From Synechococcus sp. CBW1004 (lineage in GTDB: Bacteria; Cyanobacteriota; Cyanobacteriia; PCC-6307; Cyanobiaceae): a stretch of 64,000 nt of DNA. This document shows, in pieces, positions 8,126 through 31,685 of this stretch (position 1 is its first letter; the number at the start of each line of letters is the position of its first letter). The stretch spans positions 1,426,001 to 1,490,000 of the forward strand of contig NZ_CP060397.1 of assembly GCF_015840715.1 (NCBI RefSeq), in the 5' to 3' direction. Under the pieces are notes generated by a model. It did not search any database. It was not told where the DNA came from and saw only the letters and a program-made list of their open reading frames with translations. The translations under genes were made by a program, and so were the position numbers.

Positions 8126-9505
8126 TCAGAGCGCCAGGCTCTCCGGATTGGTCTCGATCAGCTGGGCCAGATCCTTGAGGAAGGCCGCGGCATGGGCGCC
8201 GTAGACGGTGCGGTGATCACAGGTGAGATTCACCTGCATCTGATTGGCCACCCGGATCGAGCCGTCCTTGCCGGCCACCACCGTGGGCCGCGAGGCGGCC
8301 ACCGCCAGGATGGCGCCGGTGCCCGGCGGCAGGATCGCGTCGAAGCGATCGACGCCGAACATGCCGAGATTCGACAGGGTGAAGGTGCCGGTGCTGTATT
8401 CCTCGGGCTTGAGCTGCTTGCTGCGGGCGCGGGCCACCAGGTCGGCCCAGTTGCGAGCCAGCTCATAGATGTCGGTGCGGTCCGCGTTGGCGAGCACCGG
8501 CGTGATCAGGCCGCCGTCCTCCATCGCCACCGCCACCGCCACGTTCACGGCGGCGGGGTAGGTCATGGCACTGCCGTCCGCACTGGTGGCGGCATTCACC
8601 TGGGGATGGCGCGCCAGGGTGACGGCGACAGCCTTGGCAAGCAGGGCCGTCATCGTCACCCCCTTGCTCTTGACCTGCTTGTAGAAGGCGTCGAGCTTCG
8701 TGGTGGTGATCGTGTAGCCCACCCGGAAGCAGGGCACCGCCAGGCTGGCGAGCATGTTGCGGTTGACCGCGCCCTGCAGCGTGTTGAAGGCCACCGACTC
8801 ACCGGGACGGCCGAAGGCCTGACCGGCAGGTGCCGGGGCGGAGCCGTTCCCGGAGGGGGCACCGGCCGCAGCGGCTGCCACGGCGGGGCCGCTGCCCTCG
8901 GCGACGCGGGGCAGGCTCACCGGCTGACCGGTGGCTCGCTGCACATCCTCGGCCTGAATGCGGCCATGGGGGCCGCTGCCGACCACCGTCTCCAGGGCGA
9001 CCCCCAGCTGGGCGGCCAGCTTGCGGGCGCGGGGGCTGGCGACGATCCGCCCGTCGGCGCGGGCGGCCACGGGGGCAGGAGCTGCCGCCGGTGCAGGGCT
9101 GGCGGGTGCCGCCACGGGCTGGGGAGCGGGCGCCACCGGAACGACGGGAGGCGCCGCAGGGGCAGGGGCTGCAGGAGCCGCTGCAGGGCTGGTGGCCGCG
9201 GGGGCCGCTGCGGCGGCAGAGCCGCCGGAGGGATGGCGGGCAGCGACTTCGGCGATCTCGGCCTCGGTCTCCACGATCAGACCGATCGTCTCGCCCACCG
9301 GCGCGGTGCCCCCGGCAGGCAGCAGCACGGCCGCCAGGTAGCCCTCGTTGAACGACTCGACATCCATGTCGGCCTTGTCGGACTCGACCACGAGCACCGA
9401 TTCATTCCGCTCGACCCGGTCTCCGGGTTTCTTGAGCCACTCCACCACCTTGCCCTCCGTCATGGTGGAGCTGAGGGCGGGCATGAAAATTTCGTGGGTT
9501 GCCAT
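8126..9505 (-). CDS. pdhC: Dihydrolipoamide acetyltransferase, E2 of pyruvate dehydrogenase
   Basis: A 459-residue E2: lipoyl domain with [12 protein letters not shown] (the lipoylated Lys, about residue 44), a long Ala/Pro linker, a peripheral subunit-binding domain ([27 protein letters not shown]) and the C-terminal acyltransferase ending in the [15 protein letters not shown] active-site segment. Cyanobacterial E2 enzymes often have Tyr where others have Asp in the HxxxDG motif, as here. The start codon and first six codons lie inside the left att site of the genomic island, so the island provides the upstream region. LipB, which makes its cofactor, is on the far side of the island. Confidence 0.95.
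9488..9504. other. Left attachment site core (attL) of the genomic island
   Basis: AATTTCGTGGGTTGCCA here and AATTTCGTGGGTGGCCA at 30722-30738 match at 16 of 17 bases in the same orientation. The element is codons 1-6 of the E2 gene. Everything between the two copies (about 21.2 kb) includes an integrase next to the right copy, so the pair is read as attL/attR. The crossover must lie within the 12 identical bases 9488-9499. Confidence 0.8.
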
Positions 9506-9536
9506 AAACCAGTGCCCGTCTGCGTTTTGGAGGGGT

Positions 9537-9567
9537 GTTCCAACCGTTGTTCCAACTTTTCTCCAAC
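9537..9567. repeat. Left arm-type recombinase sites (GTTCCAAC pair)
   Basis: GTTCCAACC at 9537 and GTTCCAACT at 9549 are spaced 12 bp apart, with a weaker TCTCCAAC at 9560. The same pair with the same 12-bp spacing and orientation lies inside the right end (30671 and 30683). Each pair begins about 32 bp from its att core, the layout expected of integrase arm-binding sites. Confidence 0.65.
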
Positions 9568-9853
9568 TGGGGAGGCGTGCTGGGGTTGGTCGTTCGGGCG
9601 ACTTTAAGACGCCGAGGACCCCTCAGAAATGCAGTCAGCGCAACGGCAGAGCGCAAAGGAACAACGCCCCCGCAACCAACCCCAGCAACGCCTTCCAAAG
9701 GGAGACAGGCACCTCACCCCGCCCACAAGACACCACCACTCATGAACTTCCCGCATAGGCACCCACTGAGCGCCCCTGCCTTGCCTTCCGCCCTCAGCAT
9801 CCCTCTCAACCGCCACGACACGCAGAGGGGCACCAGAATCGCCCTGAAGCACC
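9568..9853. other. Non-coding left end of the island
   Basis: No convincing gene. The open frames on both strands are short, arginine- or proline-rich shadows. With the arm sites before it, this stretch separates the E2 start (leftward) from the first island gene (rightward), so it should hold divergent promoters. I could not pick out a clear -35/-10 pair. Confidence 0.4.
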
Positions 9854-10058: not shown

Positions 10059-10955
10059 ATGACCACTTCCGGGGCGATCCAGGCGGAGCGAGAGAGGCGC
10101 TCAGAGATGTGGAAGGCGGTCCAACGCATCCAAGTTGACCGCCCCCTTACGGCAGATGAGGTCCGCCAAATCGGTTGCTACAACGGCGCTCGTGGGATCT
10201 GGAGGGACAAGGCATCAACTGCCCATCTGACCCCAGCAGGCAATGGGGTCTGTGTTGGCATCAGCAGCAGGGGCAAGTACGAGGACGAGATCGGCGAAGA
10301 GACAGGCATCTACGACTACCCATCCACCAAAGTACCGACCTACGACCAAGGAGACATAGACGCGATGAGAGCGGCGTTGTCCCTGGAGATGCCGATCTTT
10401 CTCATCCGGGACACCAACGCGCAAGGAGCACCCGTCCAGGGCAAGGGTCCGAGGCGGCGCGTGGATCGGGTGGAGTTCGTCGCTGATGATCCATTGAGCA
10501 GGTCACTCATCTTCACCTTCTCCCTGGGCGGCAGAAGCGACTACCGCTTGCCAGAGGACGAGCAAGGATCTTGCTTTCAAGAAAGGGAAACGAAAGAACG
10601 GCAGAGCACGTCCAAAAAACGCAGTCAGGCAGCGTTTCGGGCAGCGGTCATCAGTCGCTACGGGGAAAGGCGCTGCTGTCTGTGTGATGCTCCTCCAGAG
10701 GTCATAGAGGCAGCGCACATCGTTCCTGTGAGCAACAACGGCAGTGACTGGAGCGGGAATGGACTGTTGGTTTGCCGCAACCATCACGCTCTGTACGATC
10801 TTGGGAGGTGGTGCCTGCATCCCCAGCATCTGGAGGTAGTGCCTGCAACAGGTCACGATCTGTCTTCTCTACAGGTCATCCGTTCCAATGTGCGTCACCT
10901 CAGGCAGAGTCCCGATCGGGAGGCGCTTCAATGGCGCTGGTCAAGGTGGGCGTGA
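10059..10955 (+). CDS. HNH endonuclease with N-terminal modification-reader-like domain
   Basis: A 298-residue protein. The C-terminal quarter is an HNH nuclease: RRCCLCDAPPEVIEAAHIVP carries a CxxC zinc pair and the first catalytic His, and LLVCRNHHALYDLGRW gives the second CxxH(H) part. The N-terminal part (about residues 25-150: GIWRDKASTAHLTP, GVCVGISSRGKYEDEIG, MRAALSLEMPIFLIRD) resembles the SRA/PUA-like readers that precede HNH domains in modification-dependent restriction enzymes; this is an inference from pattern memory. A GAGGAA ribosome-binding site precedes the ATG. A degraded relative of its C-terminus lies at 27354-27488. Confidence 0.8.
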   Translation: MTTSGAIQAERERRSEMWKAVQRIQVDRPLTADEVRQIGCYNGARGIWRDKASTAHLTPAGNGVCVGISSRGKYEDEIGEETGIYDYPSTKVPTYDQGDIDAMRAALSLEMPIFLIRDTNAQGAPVQGKGPRRRVDRVEFVADDPLSRSLIFTFSLGGRSDYRLPEDEQGSCFQERETKERQSTSKKRSQAAFRAAVISRYGERRCCLCDAPPEVIEAAHIVPVSNNGSDWSGNGLLVCRNHHALYDLGRWCLHPQHLEVVPATGHDLSSLQVIRSNVRHLRQSPDREALQWRWSRWA

Positions 10956-23445: not shown

Positions 23446-23826
23446 TCAGTCAATATCATGATAGTTCCCATCTTTATCATAATACCCTCTGAAATGCCCC
23501 CTCTTAGACGGATTGTATCTTGGCGCATAGTCAATACGTCTGCGCTCACCTGAACCCGTTTTAAACCATTGATTCGATGCTCCCTGCCTCTGTGAGGATC
23601 CCCCTCGTTCTGCTTTGAACTTGACTTGATCCCACTTGAGTTTGAGTTTCTTCCGAAGTTCATTCGCAGTCTCCTTTGCTGCCTCAAATCCCATCACTCC
23701 TCTCGCAAGGACCTGATTGTTATCTGTGCGGAAGATATAGTAAGTGTATTCCTCCAGTAATGCTGTTGCTTCATTGCATCTCTGCATGAACTGATTAAAT
23801 GTGATGCCTTGCGTGTTTGTCTTCAT
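23446..23826 (-). CDS. Hypothetical basic protein, phage-like
   Basis: A 126-residue protein. The N-terminal part (ITFNQFMQRCNEATALLEEY, then MGFEAAKETANELRKKLKL) is helical; the C-terminal part is basic, glycine/tyrosine-rich and probably disordered (RRRIDYAPRYNPSKRGHFRG, YYDKDGNYHDID). It is in the AT-rich half of the island with the zinc-ribbon gene upstream in the same direction. Not recognised. The style resembles small structural or host-takeover genes of cyanophages, a weak inference. Bases 23249-23445 before it hold no gene I can support. Confidence 0.5.
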   Translation of the reverse strand: MKTNTQGITFNQFMQRCNEATALLEEYTYYIFRTDNNQVLARGVMGFEAAKETANELRKKLKLKWDQVKFKAERGGSSQRQGASNQWFKTGSGERRRIDYAPRYNPSKRGHFRGYYDKDGNYHDID

Positions 23827-24071: not shown

Positions 24072-24503
24072 TCACTTCTGTCCTTCACTGTGATCTCTTT
24101 TGGATTCAGACTCCTTTTTCAAGTCCCCAGAACTTGTAGGATACTGATACTTTCGTATATTGTGCCCTTTCCCTGTGTAACCGCTCTGGTCTCTCTCCCT
24201 GTGATACCGACGAAACAGGTCCGGATTGTATTTCTCTAAGAACCTGGGAAACGAGATTGACTCAAAACAGTCTGGTGATTGCTTCCGTAGGCACTGAAAG
24301 GTATACCCATAACTCTCTCGTCTTGGCATCAGAGCAGCACATCGATTCCTCTTCTTGTATTCCTTCCTTTGATTGAGTGAACAGAAAGGACAGGGGAATG
24401 CATATCCTGGTCCATGAGAAAACATCTTGGGTTCCACTTCTCCTCCATCAGTACCAGCAAGGTATGGGAGAATCTGTTGAAGATATCTTTCGGTAATCGT
24501 CAT
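24072..24503 (-). CDS. Zinc-ribbon protein, primase-zinc-finger-like
   Basis: A 143-residue protein. AFPCPFCSLNQRKEYKKRNR followed about 30 residues later by YTFQCLRKQSPDCFESISF gives four cysteines spaced like a zinc ribbon, with the aromatic residues seen in DnaG-type primase zinc fingers. ISFPRFLEKYNPDLFRRYH follows. The C-terminus is basic and disordered. No primase catalytic domain is present, so if related it is a stand-alone finger. Bases 23827-24071 between it and the next gene hold no supported gene. Confidence 0.5.
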   Translation of the reverse strand: MTITERYLQQILPYLAGTDGGEVEPKMFSHGPGYAFPCPFCSLNQRKEYKKRNRCAALMPRRESYGYTFQCLRKQSPDCFESISFPRFLEKYNPDLFRRYHRERDQSGYTGKGHNIRKYQYPTSSGDLKKESESKRDHSEGQK

Positions 24504-25815: not shown

Positions 25816-25917
25816 GATGGATGCTCCTTCAGAGTTAGCAGACGCTTCAATTAAATATCTTCAACCTACTTCAATCTTCAAAAAGGCGAAAGAGCAAGCG
25901 AACCGCCTGGATAATTA
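25816..25917 (+). CDS. Possible 33-residue ORF ahead of the cassette array
   Basis: ATG at 25816 opens MDAPSELADASIKYLQPTSI and continues for 13 more residues. A strong -10-like TATAAT lies at 25769-25774 upstream; the -35 is weak. It may be a real small gene, a fragment, or chance. It is the last frame before the first repeat of the array. The rest of 25678-26010 shows no gene other than the HNH-tail remnant just before the repeat. Confidence 0.25.
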
Positions 25918-25973
25918 ATTTCGCAAGACTGGTTCTGACCTGGATACCTGAGGTCTAATTTGTCGTTTCCCTA

Positions 25974-26013
25974 TGGGAGCGATGGACTTCATATCTTTTT
26001 TGTAGTCAGATAG
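25974..26013 (+). pseudogene. HNH C-terminal tail remnant before repeat A1
   Basis: The bases encode GSDGLHIFFVVR followed by TAG, which lies inside the start of the repeat. The more complete remnant before repeat A3 ends GIDGLDVFYSVR and TAG at the same place. The DNA matches at most positions (CGATGGACTT and ATCTTTT blocks). It is the extreme 3' end of an HNH nuclease gene. Confidence 0.45.
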
Positions 26014-26063
26014 ACGACCGCAAACCGTCTTTAAACCCCTGTGTCGAATGCAGGATGATTGCG
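26011..26063 (+). repeat. Cassette repeat A1 (type A, 53 bp)
   Basis: First of four type A repeats: TAGACGACCGCAAACCGTCT then TTTAAACC-rich and CCTG...CAGG parts, ending GATTGCG. It differs from A2/A4 at two positions. Two stem-loops can form (AGACG/CGTCT and CCTG/CAGG), and CGCAA in the first loop can pair with TTGCG at the 3' end. The next ORF starts 29 bp after it. Confidence 0.9.
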
Positions 26064-26091
26064 TGATTTACATTCTGAATACCTATCAACT

Positions 26092-26307
26092 ATGGAATAC
26101 CCCACTGCCACACTTATCCGAAATCTTGTTGTCAGTCATCTGATTAGCTCCAGCGAGCTTAACATCTTTGAGACTATTGACCACTGGATTGCCACCTTCG
26201 ATCAGTATTTTCTTAATGATCCAGACTGGTTGAGAAAAGATGCTCCTGACCTAAAGGACTCTCTTCGAGCTCAGGTACTTCAACTGCTGGGACTAGATGA
26301 TTTCTGA
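26092..26307 (+). CDS. Cassette protein 1, small acidic (paralogue of cassette protein 4)
   Basis: A 71-residue acidic helical protein beginning MEYPTATLIRNLVVSHLISS and ending DLKDSLRAQVLQLLGLDDF. Cassette protein 4 (27571-27813) shares the frame of the sequence (M-x-YP-A-LI at the start, DQxF, D-x-K-DSLR-QVL near the end), so they are paralogues. A TTG start inside the repeat at 26059 would add 11 residues. Function unknown. Negative charge and size fit an immunity or DNA-mimic protein, which is speculation. Confidence 0.55.
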   Translation: MEYPTATLIRNLVVSHLISSSELNIFETIDHWIATFDQYFLNDPDWLRKDAPDLKDSLRAQVLQLLGLDDF

Positions 26308-26378
26308 ATTTCTAGCTATCCTGGTCGCCAAAGGCATTCTGCTCTCAGTAGCTTACCTTTAAGGTATTGCCCATCAGA

Positions 26379-26520
26379 TAGACGACCGCAAACGGTCTCT
26401 AAACCCGATTTCGCCGCCTTACAAGGACTTCCTCTCTCGGTGAATGAGTGGAAACATCTCCATTAGGAGGCGTGATAAACCGCGCTGCTTTGGCAAAACA
26501 TATTGAGCGTTCACCCACCG
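26379..26520 (+). repeat. Cassette repeat B1 (type B, about 142 bp)
   Basis: It begins like type A (TAGACGACCGCAAACGGTCT, then CTAAACCC) but continues differently. A 37-bp block at 26415-26451 is identical to 28638-28674, and CTGCTTTGGCAAAACATAT and GTTCACCCACCG also recur. The ORF it precedes begins at 26557. Confidence 0.85.
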
Positions 26521-26556
26521 CTTTGTTGTGGTTTTTACTCAAGGAGGACACTAATC

Positions 26557-26862
26557 ATGGGTTGCGATATCTACCTGTTCAGAAAAGATGCAAGTTCTCA
26601 ATCCTCAGATCATGGTGAGATTTTCTGGGATGTGACGTCATCGGATCTTGGATACGAATTATCCTGCGTTGGCATTGACACCGATTATCGAGAGTTCTGC
26701 ACTGATGATCTTCGCACACTTACACAAGAGCTAATTGATGGAGACAGCGAGGACTTTGGCGAATATACAGATGGTGCGCTAAAAGCACTTCTCAAGAATC
26801 TCGATAGCCTCAGCAATGAACAACGGAATAACTCCCGTTGGTTTCTAACGTTAGATTATTGA
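26557..26862 (+). CDS. Cassette protein 2, small acidic
   Basis: A 101-residue acidic protein starting MGCDIYLFRKD with GIDTDYREFCTDDLRTLTQE in the middle. A good ribosome-binding site (AAGGAGG) lies 11-17 bp before the ATG. The MGCDI opening is seen in a family of small phage and bacterial proteins of unknown role; the resemblance is weak. No paralogue in the array. Confidence 0.55.
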   Translation: MGCDIYLFRKDASSQSSDHGEIFWDVTSSDLGYELSCVGIDTDYREFCTDDLRTLTQELIDGDSEDFGEYTDGALKALLKNLDSLSNEQRNNSRWFLTLDY

Positions 26863-26948
26863 ATCAAGCACTTCATACAAGCAAATAACCAGCTACTTTC
26901 ACGATAGTGAGCAGCCCCTAAGCCCACTACCTTAAAGACATTAGTCCT

Positions 26949-26964
26949 CCCTGTGCAAACAGGG
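26949..26964. other. GNRA-loop hairpin between cassettes 2 and 3
   Basis: CCCTGTGCAAACAGGG is a perfect 6-bp stem with a GCAA loop, about 12 bp before repeat A2. No T run follows. It may be an RNA 3' end stabiliser or a weak terminator of cassette 2. Confidence 0.4.
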
Positions 26965-26975
26965 ATTAAGGCAGA

Positions 26976-27028
26976 TAGACGACCGCAAACCGTCTTTAAA
27001 CCCCTGTGTCGAAAGCAGGGTGATTGCG
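26976..27028 (+). repeat. Cassette repeat A2 (type A, 53 bp)
   Basis: Identical over all 53 bases to repeat A4 at 27842-27894. TAG at its start, two small stems, GATTGCG at its end. The downstream start codon is at 27057. Confidence 0.9.
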
Positions 27029-27056
27029 ATATCGCTTTCCATCACCAACAATCATT

Positions 27057-27296
27057 ATGTACTCCAAAAAAGAAGTCTTTGAAGAATGCTACAATGAGCT
27101 TCACTCGGGATTCATACTGTATATGATGCTCTCGTTTGACGCTGAGGCTTATGAAGCGCGAAAGCGTGAGTATCTTGACAAGTTCAAGACAGGGATACAG
27201 TCCTTTGGTTACAGCTATGATGAATTCCTCGCCTGGTGCAAATCAAACCCTAACAACGAAACTCTCTATGGGAAGCTCACCTTCCCAGAGCAATAG
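27057..27296 (+). CDS. Cassette protein 3, small hypothetical
   Basis: A 79-residue helical protein, MYSKKEVFEECYNELHSGFI ... SYDEFLAWCKSNPNNETLYG. Near-neutral charge, unlike cassettes 1, 2, 4 and 6. A TTG in the repeat (27024) is in frame and would add 11 residues. Not recognised. An HNH tail remnant and repeat A3 follow it. Confidence 0.5.
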   Translation: MYSKKEVFEECYNELHSGFILYMMLSFDAEAYEARKREYLDKFKTGIQSFGYSYDEFLAWCKSNPNNETLYGKLTFPEQ

Positions 27297-27353
27297 AAAC
27301 CTCCTTGTTGCTGTCCTGCCTCATATGTAAGGGCAAGCATCCCTGGACCAGCC

Positions 27354-27488
27354 CGTAAACATCATGCTCTGTACGAGCGTGAGAGGTGGTGCCTAAATCC
27401 CCAGCAACTGGAGGTAGCTCCTGCCATTGGGCACGATCTGCCTTCTCTGGGGATCGATGGACTTGATGTCTTTTATTCAGTCAGATAG
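27354..27488 (+). pseudogene. HNH endonuclease C-terminal remnant before repeat A3
   Basis: Forty-four codons read RKHHALYERERWCLNPQQLE VAPAIGHDLPSLGIDGLDVF and end at TAG inside repeat A3. The intact nuclease at 10059-10955 has RNHHALYDLGRWCLHPQHLE and then VVPATGHDLSSLQ. The match begins abruptly at the second half of the HNH motif; the rest of the gene is absent. DNA of the two regions is still clearly alike, so the copy is recent or conserved. Confidence 0.75.
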
Positions 27489-27538
27489 ACGACCGCAAAC
27501 CGTCTCTAAACCCCTGTGTCGAAAGCAGGGTGATTGCG
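27486..27538 (+). repeat. Cassette repeat A3 (type A, 53 bp)
   Basis: One difference from A2/A4 (GTCTCTAAA for GTCTTTAAA). Its first three bases are the stop codon of the HNH remnant. The next start codon is at 27571, 32 bp on. Confidence 0.9.
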
Positions 27539-27570
27539 TGTGACCAATATTTTTCATTTCTTTCGTTCTT

Positions 27571-27813
27571 ATGAATTACCCAGCTGCAGACCTCATCCTT
27601 AAGATTGCTGTCTCAAAGATGGTTCGGAAATACGATATTGATCTTGACGATCTGATCTATGACACTATCTCCGATTATGATCAATTCTTCGAAGGAGACA
27701 ATGAGTGGTTTGACGAAGAAGATACTGACATGAAGGATTCACTTCGAGATCAGGTTCTTGAGTCTCTTCAACTCGACCAAAACGATACTGTAGCACTCAT
27801 ATTTGGTCGGTGA
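27571..27813 (+). CDS. Cassette protein 4, small acidic (paralogue of cassette protein 1)
   Basis: An 80-residue, very acidic protein: MNYPAADLILKIAVSKMVRK, DLDDLIYDTISDYDQFFEGD and MKDSLRDQVLESLQL. It aligns end to end with cassette protein 1 at a modest identity. Divergence between two paralogues that sit behind near-identical repeats means the repeats are conserved while the genes are not. Function unknown. Confidence 0.55.
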   Translation: MNYPAADLILKIAVSKMVRKYDIDLDDLIYDTISDYDQFFEGDNEWFDEEDTDMKDSLRDQVLESLQLDQNDTVALIFGR

Positions 27814-27841
27814 CCTTGCGAGAGTAGGTTCAGACATTCAG

Positions 27842-27894
27842 TAGACGACCGCAAACCGTCTTTAAACCCCTGTGTCGAAAGCAGGGTGATTGCG
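27842..27894 (+). repeat. Cassette repeat A4 (type A, 53 bp)
   Basis: Identical to A2. Its last base touches the ATG of the next gene at 27895, so here the CAGGGTG part of the second stem would act as the ribosome-binding region. This is the copy that most strongly suggests a translated leader. Confidence 0.9.
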
Positions 27895-28590
27895 ATGGGA
27901 AAATACCATCTTATTATTTTAATGGCAATTGGTTTCGGTGCTACCACTACTAGCAACGAAGATACTATTCGATCTCTGCAGAAATCTACATTTCTAAGGA
28001 ATGAAGAGATTGTTGATCTTTATCGTGACAAGTGGAATAGAATATATCCTGCTCGGATTTTTCACTCGTTCTCGGAGCAAGAGCTTTTTTCACCCCGTGA
28101 ATACTGTTATCATAACCTTAATTCAGATCGCGCCTGTTTAAGCAGTGATTGTTCTTCTCCTAGCTCTACAGGGGAGACTCGGATTATTAGAGAGTTTTTG
28201 CGATTTGGATTCTGGTCTCTTACTATTGAGCAGACTATCAAGCCTTTTAATCCAGAGCGCATAAAGGAGTGGGAACTCACGATTGCTGTATGGTGCGGCA
28301 ATCGACGAGTCTTTCATCCTCAGCAAGCCAAAAATAATATTCTTGCCTACCATGATCAATCCGTCTATGAGAGGTGGAAACAGATTGTGTTGGCAGATCT
28401 CGATAACTTTGCAGAAGTTCTTCGTGTTTTCAATCCTATGAATCACATATATTCAGTCGCCTGCTCTGCTTCATCGGAAAGAGTGTGTAAACGCTTGAAC
28501 CTTGAAGTTCGAAATGGTATTGCTTTTCTACTTCATGAGAAAGGTAAGGTTTGTCAGCACAAGTCAGGTGCATTCATGCCCTCTACCTAA
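27895..28590 (+). CDS. Cassette protein 5, hypothetical
   Basis: A 231-residue protein, the largest in the array, with a hydrophobic start (MGKYHLIILMAIGFGATTTS) that could be a signal peptide or anchor. The body has several cysteines (REYCYHN, DRACLSSDCSS, IAVWCGN, SVACSAS, ERVCKR, GKVCQH) and no recognised domain. GTG at 27886 in the repeat is in frame. It is flanked by repeat A4 and repeat B2. Confidence 0.5.
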   Translation: MGKYHLIILMAIGFGATTTSNEDTIRSLQKSTFLRNEEIVDLYRDKWNRIYPARIFHSFSEQELFSPREYCYHNLNSDRACLSSDCSSPSSTGETRIIREFLRFGFWSLTIEQTIKPFNPERIKEWELTIAVWCGNRRVFHPQQAKNNILAYHDQSVYERWKQIVLADLDNFAEVLRVFNPMNHIYSVACSASSERVCKRLNLEVRNGIAFLLHEKGKVCQHKSGAFMPST

Positions 28591-28601
28591 TCTGATCTCC
28601 A

Positions 28602-28744
28602 TAGACAATCAGAAGCTGTCTCTAAACCCTACTCTGTCGCCTTACAAGGACTTCCTCTCTCGGTGAATGAGTGGCAATAGTTGCACTGGAAGGCATGATA
28701 CACTGCGCTGCTTTGGCAAAACATATGGAGTGTTCACCCACCGC
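28602..28744 (+). repeat. Cassette repeat B2 (type B, about 143 bp)
   Basis: Shares with B1 the 37-bp identical block (28638-28674) and later blocks. Its first stem is AGACA/TGTCT in place of AGACG/CGTCT, a paired change that keeps the stem. The rest of the first loop differs. The next gene starts at 28782. Confidence 0.85.
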
Positions 28745-28781
28745 CTTACAATTCAATTACCAAATCATCAACACACAATTA

Positions 28782-29053
28782 TGACTTCTAATCAGCAAAT
28801 CCTTATCCCTTGGTCTCCCATAATTGAAACATGGATAAATGAAGACCCTTATGCGTCTGATAACTTTTGGAGTTATTATCCCGATGCCAACCACTCTCCT
28901 TATGAACAACTCATCCAAATTCATATGGTAGCAGAGGATACTAATGCCGATTTCTTTGATTCGCTTGTCCATGTCATTTCAAATATCGTAAATGATGATA
29001 GCGGAGGCTTTCAATGCGATTTTTGCGAGGAGGGTGTTTATGTGATCTCCTAG
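28782..29053 (+). CDS. Cassette protein 6, small acidic
   Basis: A 90-residue very acidic protein: MTSNQQILIPWSPIIETWIN, DPYASDNFWSYYPDANHSPY and a C-terminal CDFCEE. Last gene of the array; a strong terminator follows at 29098-29130. Not related to the other cassette proteins by eye. Confidence 0.5.
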
Positions 29054-29092
29054 CAATATCTTTGACCTGTCTGGCTGCAAGGTGCAACTGCA

Positions 29093-30574
29093 TCACAACG
29101 ACTCAAGGTCCACTGCCTTGGGTCGTTTTTGTTTCTTCCCGTAGGTTCGTGCTGTTGCTTCCGCCCTTCTCGCTCCCGGAGCTGTTTTTTTTCTCTCTTG
29201 ATCACCTGCAGGATATTGACTCATATTGTCTAAAAGAGTATCTTCACCATTGCTGACAGAAGCACTTTGAAAGAAGCCTAGTGAATCAATATGAAAACGG
29301 CTGGATAGTCCATCGTATGTTTTTTGAATCATAGCTAGAGATGTGCCGCAGTTCTTTGCTACCAGATTGACTCTTTGCCCTTGCAAGAGTGCAAATGAGA
29401 TATGTGTGGACCTCAAAGAGTAAAGTGTATATTTGCGATCAAAGTCGCATTTGGCGAGAACACGGTTGAACCACTGTCTTATATGCTCTATATGATACAT
29501 TGATCTATCACTAAAAAATGGATTCATCATTAATAAGTCATCATCTGATGGCGGCAAAACCAGCGGCTCTATTTCGGTGACTAGATTGCCTTTCTTATCT
29601 TTTATCATTTCAGCAGTGATTCTTCTGTTTAAATCTGCATGCTGTTCATTGCGGATTTTAATTCCTTTGCTCAGGTGTGACTTAATCGCTTGAAGCGTGT
29701 TTCCGTTCATAGCCACTTCTCTCCCACCTGTCTTTGTAGTATTGGATATTTTCACGATCCCGCTGAGTTTTCCGTCTGACCTCCTGACTACTTCGCAGTC
29801 ACCCCAGCGAATCTGCGCTGTTTCATGCGGTCTGCATCCTGATTGATATTGAAATCTTACCCACTGAATAATCCAACGTCTCTTCCACCTTGTTTCTTGA
29901 TCTAAAGACTGTTTCTCAATTGCATATAGCTCATCGCTAAACCTTTTCCAATGATCTGGCAAGAAAGCTGGATTTGCCTCATCTCTATAGTTCTTGCGGT
30001 CTTTAATCTTCTTTACTTCCGGCTTCTTCTTAGGGTCAAGCATCTCATTGTCTACCATCCAACTTAAAATTGCCTTCAAGGTCGTGATGTCACTATTAAT
30101 TGTCCCCGCTGAAAGTCCATTAGTATCACTCTTCCATTTTCCTTTTTGCGTCACATCAAGGTAATATCCTGAGTAATCAGAGAATGAAGTCTTACAAATA
30201 TCGCCAATACTGCGGATTCCTTTTGCCCTACAGTAGGGGAGTATTCGTTGCGATATCCTCTGTCTATAAAGGTCATGTGACCGATCGGCAAGTTGTCCTC
30301 GCGTTACTTCAACCTCCTTTTCCTGTAGATATAATTCACAAATCTTTGCAAAAGAGAGGTTTCGGCTTTTTGTTTTTGGAGCCTGACTTTCAATCTGGAC
30401 ATATGCAGACAAAGCATTCTTATGCGCTTGCTTAATGTCGCTTGTCTTAAGTGAGATATTAGTGTATCTTTTTCCGCCTCTGTTTACGCGAAGGAAGAAC
30501 GCCTCTCTCTCTGCATACTTAATAACGTATGCCTGACCATTAAGGGTTGGCTCCTTGATCTCAATTTTCGGCAT
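29093..30574 (-). CDS. Tyrosine recombinase (island integrase)
   Basis: A 493-residue phage-type integrase. An N-terminal arm-binding part is followed by a core-binding domain (about 70-190) and a catalytic domain with QSGCRPHETAQIRW (catalytic Arg near 246), YSLRSTHISFAL (second Arg and His near 386) and IQKTYDGLS (nucleophile Tyr near 420). Box II has Tyr where many relatives have His, a variant seen in a clade whose motif reads YSLR. It is AT-rich like the right half of the island and points away from the nearby att site. It is the likely enzyme for the attL/attR pair. Confidence 0.92.
   Translation of the reverse strand: MPKIEIKEPTLNGQAYVIKYAEREAFFLRVNRGGKRYTNISLKTSDIKQAHKNALSAYVQIESQAPKTKSRNLSFAKICELYLQEKEVEVTRGQLADRSHDLYRQRISQRILPYCRAKGIRSIGDICKTSFSDYSGYYLDVTQKGKWKSDTNGLSAGTINSDITTLKAILSWMVDNEMLDPKKKPEVKKIKDRKNYRDEANPAFLPDHWKRFSDELYAIEKQSLDQETRWKRRWIIQWVRFQYQSGCRPHETAQIRWGDCEVVRRSDGKLSGIVKISNTTKTGGREVAMNGNTLQAIKSHLSKGIKIRNEQHADLNRRITAEMIKDKKGNLVTEIEPLVLPPSDDDLLMMNPFFSDRSMYHIEHIRQWFNRVLAKCDFDRKYTLYSLRSTHISFALLQGQRVNLVAKNCGTSLAMIQKTYDGLSSRFHIDSLGFFQSASVSNGEDTLLDNMSQYPAGDQERKKTAPGARRAEATARTYGKKQKRPKAVDLESL
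29098..29130 (+). terminator. Rho-independent terminator closing the cassette array
   Basis: Arms ACGAC-T-CAAGG (29098-29108) and CCTTG-G-GTCGT (29116-29126) pair with one T-G wobble around a 7-nt loop, and five T follow. It terminates rightward transcripts from the array and overlaps the last codons of the integrase gene on the other strand. Confidence 0.75.
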
Positions 30575-30612
30575 AGCAGAGAACCGAGAGGGTGTTCATC
30601 GGACCAACATCA

Positions 30613-30691
30613 GTTCCAACCCTCGCCTGAGCGGTCTCGACGTGACTGACTTTAGCATCAAAAACGGCTTGTTCCAACCCTTGTTCCAACC
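30613..30691. repeat. Right arm-type recombinase sites (GTTCCAACC)
   Basis: GTTCCAACC at 30613, 30671 and 30683. The last two are 12 bp apart, exactly like the left pair, and end 30 bp before the right att core. They lie in the integrase promoter region, so the integrase may control its own gene through them. Confidence 0.65.
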
Positions 30692-30721
30692 TTAGAAACG
30701 AGACTGGAGCTAGGGTTTTTC

Positions 30722-30738
30722 AATTTCGTGGGTGGCCA
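30722..30738. other. Right attachment site core (attR) of the genomic island
   Basis: AATTTCGTGGGTGGCCA, 16 of 17 bases as at 9488-9504. On the reverse strand it reads TTG GCC ACC CAC GAA ATT, i.e. the opening codons of E2 with a TTG start, then runs into GAA AAA CCC TAG. It is the severed 5' end of the E2 gene left behind 31 bp after the VOC gene. Confidence 0.8.
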
Positions 30739-31241: not shown

Positions 31242-31685
31242 TCAGGCCCCTTCGATCGCCTCGATGACACCGTCGCGCACCAGGATCGCCGCCTGGAGCT
31301 TCTCCACCAGGTTGTCGCCGACCGACACGTCGATCGTGCTCTCGATCTGACCCTGCTCCACGACCGCCTCCATCTCGAGTTCGCGAACCTGACGCTGCTG
31401 CTCGAGCAGCTGACGCTTCTGCTCCTCCAGCTCGGCACGCTTGGCGGCCACCTGCTGCTGCACCGAGGCCACCTGCTCCTGCACGCGCGGATCGAGGGGA
31501 TTGGCACTCTGGCGGCGGATCTGATCGATCACCAGCTGCCCCTCCTGCTCCAGCTGGCCGAGCTGCTGATCGACGTTGACGATGGCGTTGCTGAGCTCCC
31601 GCTCGGCATCCTCCTTCCAGCGCGGGGTGACGACGGCCCGCACCGTGATCGTGCGCTTGATCGTCAGGGTGGTGCCGTCAGCCAT
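31242..31685 (-). CDS. YlqD-family protein
   Basis: A 147-residue protein with KRTITVRAVVTPRWKEDAER, a long central coiled coil (about 30-110, glutamine-rich: VQQQVAAKRAELEEQKRQ) and a C-terminal VSVGDNLVEKLQAAILVRDG. This is the YlqD-type protein conserved in cyanobacteria and Firmicutes; function not known. It is 16 bp upstream of the VOC gene and in the same direction, so the two form an operon. Confidence 0.82.
   Translation of the reverse strand: MADGTTLTIKRTITVRAVVTPRWKEDAERELSNAIVNVDQQLGQLEQEGQLVIDQIRRQSANPLDPRVQEQVASVQQQVAAKRAELEEQKRQLLEQQRQVRELEMEAVVEQGQIESTIDVSVGDNLVEKLQAAILVRDGVIEAIEGA

Follow-up and report, generated by a model that had tools for sequence, protein, structure and literature searches.

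A predicted pseudoknotted leader RNA shared by unrelated cargo genes of an integrative-island family in cyanobacteria

What kind of element places copies of the same repeat in front of successive, mostly unrelated genes on a mobile island? The question is raised by an array at positions 25974-29053 of a 64,000-nucleotide stretch (the window) of the genome of Synechococcus sp. CBW1004 (contig NZ_CP060397.1, positions 1,426,001 to 1,490,000). As a preliminary description of this DNA had reported, and as we confirm, six plus-strand genes lie here in the same direction, each preceded by one repeat, of which four belong to type A and two to type B. The type A copies A1 to A4 (26011-26065, 26976-27030, 27486-27540 and 27842-27896, all on the plus strand) are nearly identical over 53-55 nucleotides (nt), and the type B copies B1 and B2 (26379-26525 and 28602-28747, plus strand) are about 147 nt long, with a mutual identity of 83% over 147 nt. 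The head TAGAC-N11-GTCT-Y-TAAACCC is common to both types. Across the 3.67 Mb genome there are exactly six occurrences of the core motif, all of them within the array, and the reversed pattern, used as a control, gave none. We propose, with a probability of about 70%, that every repeat forms the 5′ untranslated leader of the gene it precedes and most likely serves as a translation-control element.

BLAST analysis of the array against 400 genomes of the family revealed relatives of the repeats in other genera, and further copies were found with a covariance model (R1) followed by a wider model (R3), neither of which contained the pseudoknot described below. R3 also gave matches of about 22 bits within dnaG in many genomes (for example at L214, L217 and L218), where codons for the DnaG zinc finger mimic the first hairpin of type A (GACGACAGCAAACCGTC); these false positives were removed by inspection. 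Type A was accepted in 16 other genomes (G279, G119, G239, G087, G110, G183, G347, G163, G245, G290, G225, G064, G278, G266, G397 and G259) and type B was found in five genomes besides that of the window (G279, G085, G144, G179 and G119), so that together the two types occur in 20 genomes of 11 genera, including the window genome, in which the leaders are confined to the island. A search of 41 congeners gave no convincing copy, the type B pattern had no match in viral contigs, and a loose IUPAC pattern run against viral and genome contigs was rejected, with chance-like matches scattered over unrelated taxa or lying within genes.

The type A fold comprises a hairpin, P1, a linker NTAAACC (UAAACC in the RNA) and a second, variable hairpin, P2; on the 3′ side of P2, mostly at a distance of 2-3 nt, lies a strand that pairs with the P1 loop to form a pseudoknot. 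In copy A1, P1 is formed by 26013-26016 and 26026-26029, and the pseudoknot by CGCAA (26019-26023) with TTGCG (26059-26063). P1 is mostly GACG/CGTC and elsewhere GGCG/CGCC, GAGG/CCTC or GACT/AGTC, and the sequence of P2 varies freely with its pairing kept. The pseudoknot strands likewise change from copy to copy yet stay complementary (CGCAA/UUGCG, CUCAG/CUGAG, ACCAG/CUGGU, UUCUG/CAGAA, ACCUG/CAGGU and AUCCCG/CGGGAU), extending in G245 to the longer AACTCAG/CTGAGTT. Unpaired bases in the loop (A..../AC) and the linker (UAAACC) are near-invariant, set among helices that vary. Twenty copies were placed in a reduced alignment, in which two-sided changes are seen at 10 of the 14 base pairs and 95% of the cells are paired; the observed covariation score was reached by none of 500 shuffles. 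In a plain MAFFT alignment, for which only the P1 and pseudoknot rows were counted (P2 being displaced by one column), most copies retain the five core pairs of the pseudoknot, and at four of these pairs changes are found on both sides. When the loop of each of ten representative copies was compared with its own tail, a run of at least five Watson-Crick pairs was present in eight, compared with 2.0 expected when the tails are permuted among copies, and no permutation of 5000 reached this value. Since the search models lacked the pseudoknot, it constitutes independent evidence. Folding of single sequences gave energies no better than those of shuffles because the pseudoknot is invisible to such folding. 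The helices thus covary as is generally expected of a structured cis-acting RNA leader, and type A is, on this comparative evidence, predicted to be a pseudoknotted RNA.

The position of the repeats with respect to the genes is likewise constant. In 16 of the 20 copies the first base of P1 lies 75-84 nt (median 78) before a start codon on the same strand, as expected of a leader, with genes that are largely unrelated; at three of these 16 copies, a TTG start is found at the expected place. Between leader and start codon lies an A/U-rich, unstructured stretch of about 25-30 nt with a G+C content (GC) of 0.29. None of 16 leader genes tested has a Shine-Dalgarno sequence at or below a free energy of -4.5 kcal/mol, compared with 31% of 163 control open reading frames, and strong Shine-Dalgarno sequences are present at some other island genes.

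Genes change behind conserved leaders. Among G225, G266, G278 and G290, the upstream DNA is 81-87% identical and the leader 85-95%, and the downstream DNA 55-61%, against 58% for random sequence. Between G183 and G347, genes of families F27 and F29 have traded places: the gene directly after F4 overlaps or adjoins F4 and has no leader, the gene behind F28 has one, so that either gene carries a leader when it stands behind F28, and the leader at that position is conserved though the gene there differs. This swap suggests that a gene may need a leader only if it is uncoupled from the preceding gene. The repeats, which on integrase islands of other genera precede small genes that are mostly unrelated, are thus neither restricted to one genome nor tied to a fixed gene order, either of which would have pointed to simple tandem duplication according to the preliminary description. 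We infer that this turnover is better explained by ordinary homologous recombination, with the leaders acting as shared homology.

In the array itself, A1 precedes a gene for a 71-residue protein (26092-26307) without a Pfam or PHROG match, B1 a gene for an unknown 101-residue protein (26557-26862), A2 one for an unknown 79-residue protein (27057-27296), A3 one for an 80-residue protein (27571-27813) with relatives in the G290 and G360 islands, A4 one for a 222-residue protein (27922-28590) of a family common to the islands of G085, G144, G183 and G347, and B2 one for an unknown 90-residue protein (28781-29053), all on the plus strand. Two start positions given previously need revision: the gene behind A4 more likely begins at 27922, an ATG at +78, than at 27895, and the last gene begins at 28781, not 28782. 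The statement that the genes are mostly unrelated holds for most of them, with no homology to one another detectable by sequence; it does not hold for those at 26092 and 27571, which are homologous paralogs. Since A1 and A3 are also alike over about 36 bp upstream, the homology of these two units extends over the gene, the leader and the flank upstream, and the unit was therefore duplicated. Between units A2 and A3 lies a remnant of an HNH gene (27353-27448, plus strand), 83% identical to positions 10775-10870 within the HNH gene of the island (10059-10955). Searches of Pfam, PHROGs and PADLOC gave nothing convincing for the six array proteins, BLAST of the array against phages and plasmids gave no match, and promoter and terminator scans of the array returned about as many matches as shuffled sequences.

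Type B also looks like a structured RNA, with modest support from covariation. In four copies from other genomes, start codons lie 134-141 nt past the start of the conserved body, before different genes, and members of one gene family (MPNDC...) follow a type A leader in G087 and type B leaders in G085 and G179. Copy B1 combines a type A head with a type B body, and a copy in G279 consists of a complete type A followed by a type B tail; such hybrids point to recombination inside leaders. A further form, type D (AGTCG-ATAAAC-CGACT-CAAAACCC), lies 77 nt before a relative of the A1/A3 gene in G290 and 76 nt before a gene in G347. At L171:10329 and L261:8238 we also observed a short variant, equivalent to the initial ~40 nt of type B (CGCCTTATCAGGAACGCCGCACTCGGT..GCGGC), in front of further small genes. 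Type-B-like heads (GGCA-ATCGGYAAC-TGCC), in which the loop pairs locally (CGGC/GCCG and CGGT/ACCG), precede a common gene at L197:7160 and L198:8747.

The array is part of an integrative island of 21.2 kb (9488-30738). In six congeners pdhC (8126-9504 in the window, identified by sequence) directly adjoins the gene at 31242, and about 21 kb has therefore been inserted in the window genome. The island has a GC of 0.42-0.60 compared with ~0.70 outside, and carries the direct repeat AATTTCGTGGGTKGCCA at both ends, as an att core on the left at the 5′ end of pdhC (9488-9504, plus strand, AATTTCGTGGGTTGCCA) and on the right (30722-30738, plus strand, AATTTCGTGGGTGGCCA), the uninterrupted form of which is the site in the congeners. 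A tyrosine integrase gene (29093-30574, minus strand; PHROG phrog_1, 4e-24; family F0) adjoins the right end, convergent with the array. Integrase gene, att repeat and empty site in relatives are thus all present, bearing out the earlier proposal of a mobile island. Since the att core is separate from the repeats, the latter are not the attachment sites of the island. Several GTTCCAAC repeats near both ends (9535-9570 and 30601-30695) may be arm-type integrase binding sites. According to Pfam, further genes of the island are the HNH gene, type I restriction-modification genes and those for a YgjP-like protease, a Cro-like helix-turn-helix regulator, a Sak-like single-strand annealing protein and RmuC. 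Tycheposons, the tRNA-targeting elements of Prochlorococcus, integrate at tRNA genes; here the site is the 5′ end of pdhC, and the window contains no tRNA.

The integrase family F0 (14 members) is common to most leader-bearing islands, and several of these share backbone genes with the window island. One such gene, with Cys clusters (24072-24503, minus strand; family F1), recurs in several other islands, and another (23446-23826, minus strand; family F3) in those of G279, G085, G239 and G163. The leader-bearing elements of G183 and G347 carry a gene for a DUF5906-like replication protein adjoining an AlpA regulator (L197:12153-13946 and L198:3215-4996), which suggests that they are satellite- or plasmid-like. 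At a distance of about 1 kb from a type A leader, G245 has a minus-strand gene (L203:7464-8645) for a phage-type single-subunit RNA polymerase (phrog_414, 4e-61).

Taken as a leader, the repeat would be one compact folded RNA reused before unrelated cargo genes of a single family of integrative islands. It may act at translation initiation, where it would either recruit the ribosome to the unstructured stretch or control its access there; the genes of a presumed polycistronic cargo operon would then be translated independently of one another, perhaps under one common control, and the shared leaders would also supply homology for gene gain and loss. Several points weigh against this proposal. 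A role at the level of transcription or of mRNA stability could fit a conserved leader as well, and no regulator common to all the islands was found. The genes behind the G225 and G266 leaders and behind copy B1 do have Shine-Dalgarno sequences, and the start codons used for the spacing were partly selected by us among alternatives. In the reduced alignment, the strands of P2 and of the tail were picked by eye, although under a uniform rule. Finally, three G183/G347 copies and the g34 group have only 3-4 pseudoknot pairs and type D in G290 and G347 has no visible pseudoknot; the pseudoknot is therefore not essential in every copy.

No relevant Rfam match was obtained at E values up to 5 for the window or up to 2 for nine loci (snoZ247, isrA and mir-1677, all below threshold, were rejected), and no published description of the type A motif was found in a literature search of incomplete coverage; the leader RNA family is apparently undescribed. 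In layout, the array's nearest analogy is the start-associated sequence (SAS) of cluster K mycobacteriophages, a 13-base sequence adjoining the start, and its extended form (ESAS), an imperfect inverted repeat (PMC3203893). As with the leaders, these elements recur, in two forms, where numerous unrelated small genes of a mobile or viral genome start, members of the same gene family occur sometimes with and sometimes without the element, and a role in translation is suspected (PMC3203893). The leaders differ in being a pseudoknotted RNA of ~50 nt, without a Shine-Dalgarno sequence, about 78 nt upstream; the SAS sequence GGGATAGGAGCCC has two matches with two mismatches in the 64 kb, which is chance level, and neither lies in the array.

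A stronger version of the proposal, which we put forward only tentatively, would make the leader a pseudoknotted substitute for the Shine-Dalgarno sequence, a transferable ribosome recruiter functionally resembling an internal ribosome entry element, and the islands modular operons, with genes being exchanged behind leaders that are already in place.

We regard it as possible, if on balance unlikely, that the leaders are ligand-binding riboswitches, in which a metabolite or ion would stabilise the pseudoknot and thereby switch translation of all the cargo genes at once. A compact pseudoknot of 50-60 nt with near-invariant unpaired bases and variable helices is consistent with this, and small pseudoknotted riboswitches do exist in cyanobacteria: like type A, the glutamine-II riboswitch and Downstream-peptide motif form a pseudoknotted leader of ~60 nt, although the glutamine-II pseudoknot is formed between a 5′ strand and the second hairpin's loop (PMC6698751), and that of type A between the first hairpin's loop and the 3′ tail. 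Against it, no Rfam riboswitch matched even at permissive thresholds, no expression platform such as an occluded Shine-Dalgarno sequence is visible, and the downstream genes have no common known pathway. The topology of type A further resembles that of the fluoride (crcB) riboswitch, in which the P1 loop pairs with a 3′ strand after P2 and a UAAAC-like linker is present, a likeness that favours a riboswitch; type A nevertheless does not match the Rfam model at E up to 5, differs in its conserved loop bases and has no associated ion exporter gene.

By analogy with gp32 of phage T4, which acts on its own mRNA, an RNA-binding protein encoded by the island, a helper phage or the host might instead use the leaders as operators, binding to the pseudoknot and spreading over the A/U-rich RNA as far as the start codon; we consider this explanation doubtful. 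The layout is that of the gene 32 operator of T4, T2 and RB69, in which a pseudoknot about 67 nt upstream is followed by unstructured, A+U-rich RNA up to the start codon; that operator, however, serves one gene, autoregulated by its own product, whereas the leaders serve many unrelated genes without a known binder (PMC3014915). There is, moreover, no obvious candidate gene common to all the islands, and the helix sequences vary freely.

The preliminary description regarded the array as cassette-like, and we find this correct in so far as genes are exchanged behind conserved repeats. We judge it improbable that a cassette system, whether integron-like or new, uses the repeats for site-specific recombination. 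Different genes behind conserved repeats, the hybrid repeats (B1 and the G279 copy) and an integron-type integrase gene in the genome could be cited in favour of this idea, and integron cassettes resemble the array as rows of small, promoterless-looking genes with one repeat per gene. The repeats, however, stand 5′ of the gene at a fixed spacing from the start codon, not at a cassette boundary, they form an RNA pseudoknot with co-varying helices, and the island possesses an integrase and an att site of its own. As stated earlier, they do not fit attC: a scan for the boxes RYYYAAC...GTTRRRY with paired inner boxes gave no match on either strand of 25900-29100, and found a known attC used as a positive control. 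The window, as claimed, lacks an integron integrase; the claim fails for the genome as a whole, the only full TIGR02249 match in which is an integron-type integrase (G000:C1:1968004-1968936; L259:12004-12946) at 464 bits, above the cut-off, and 0.51 Mb from the array. A simple attC scan of 34 kb around this gene revealed no site.

Simple tandem duplication of one leader-gene unit with fast-diverging genes, as the homologous A1 and A3 units might suggest, is highly improbable and refuted as a full explanation by the other array genes, unrelated by sequence, by the same leaders standing before still other genes in ten other genera, and by the differing gene order of G183 and G347. Equally remote is the idea that the repeats are double-stranded promoters for a phage-type RNA polymerase, in spite of the polymerase encoded ~1 kb from the leader in the G245 island, since the sequence of a DNA promoter would be expected to be preserved, whereas the paired strands of the repeats change in concert, and since the annotated proteins of the window island include no recognised polymerase of this kind.

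The shared leader RNA, we conclude from these comparisons, probably controls translation of the islands' cargo genes. If this is right, it would represent a strongly covarying RNA family that has not been described before, present in 11 genera and, in the window genome, confined to the island. It would also be a rare case in which numerous unrelated cargo genes of one kind of integrative element have a leader RNA in common. The leader would then offer a handle on the control of island cargo, allow more islands to be found by searching for it, and serve as a test case for how translation starts where a Shine-Dalgarno sequence is missing.

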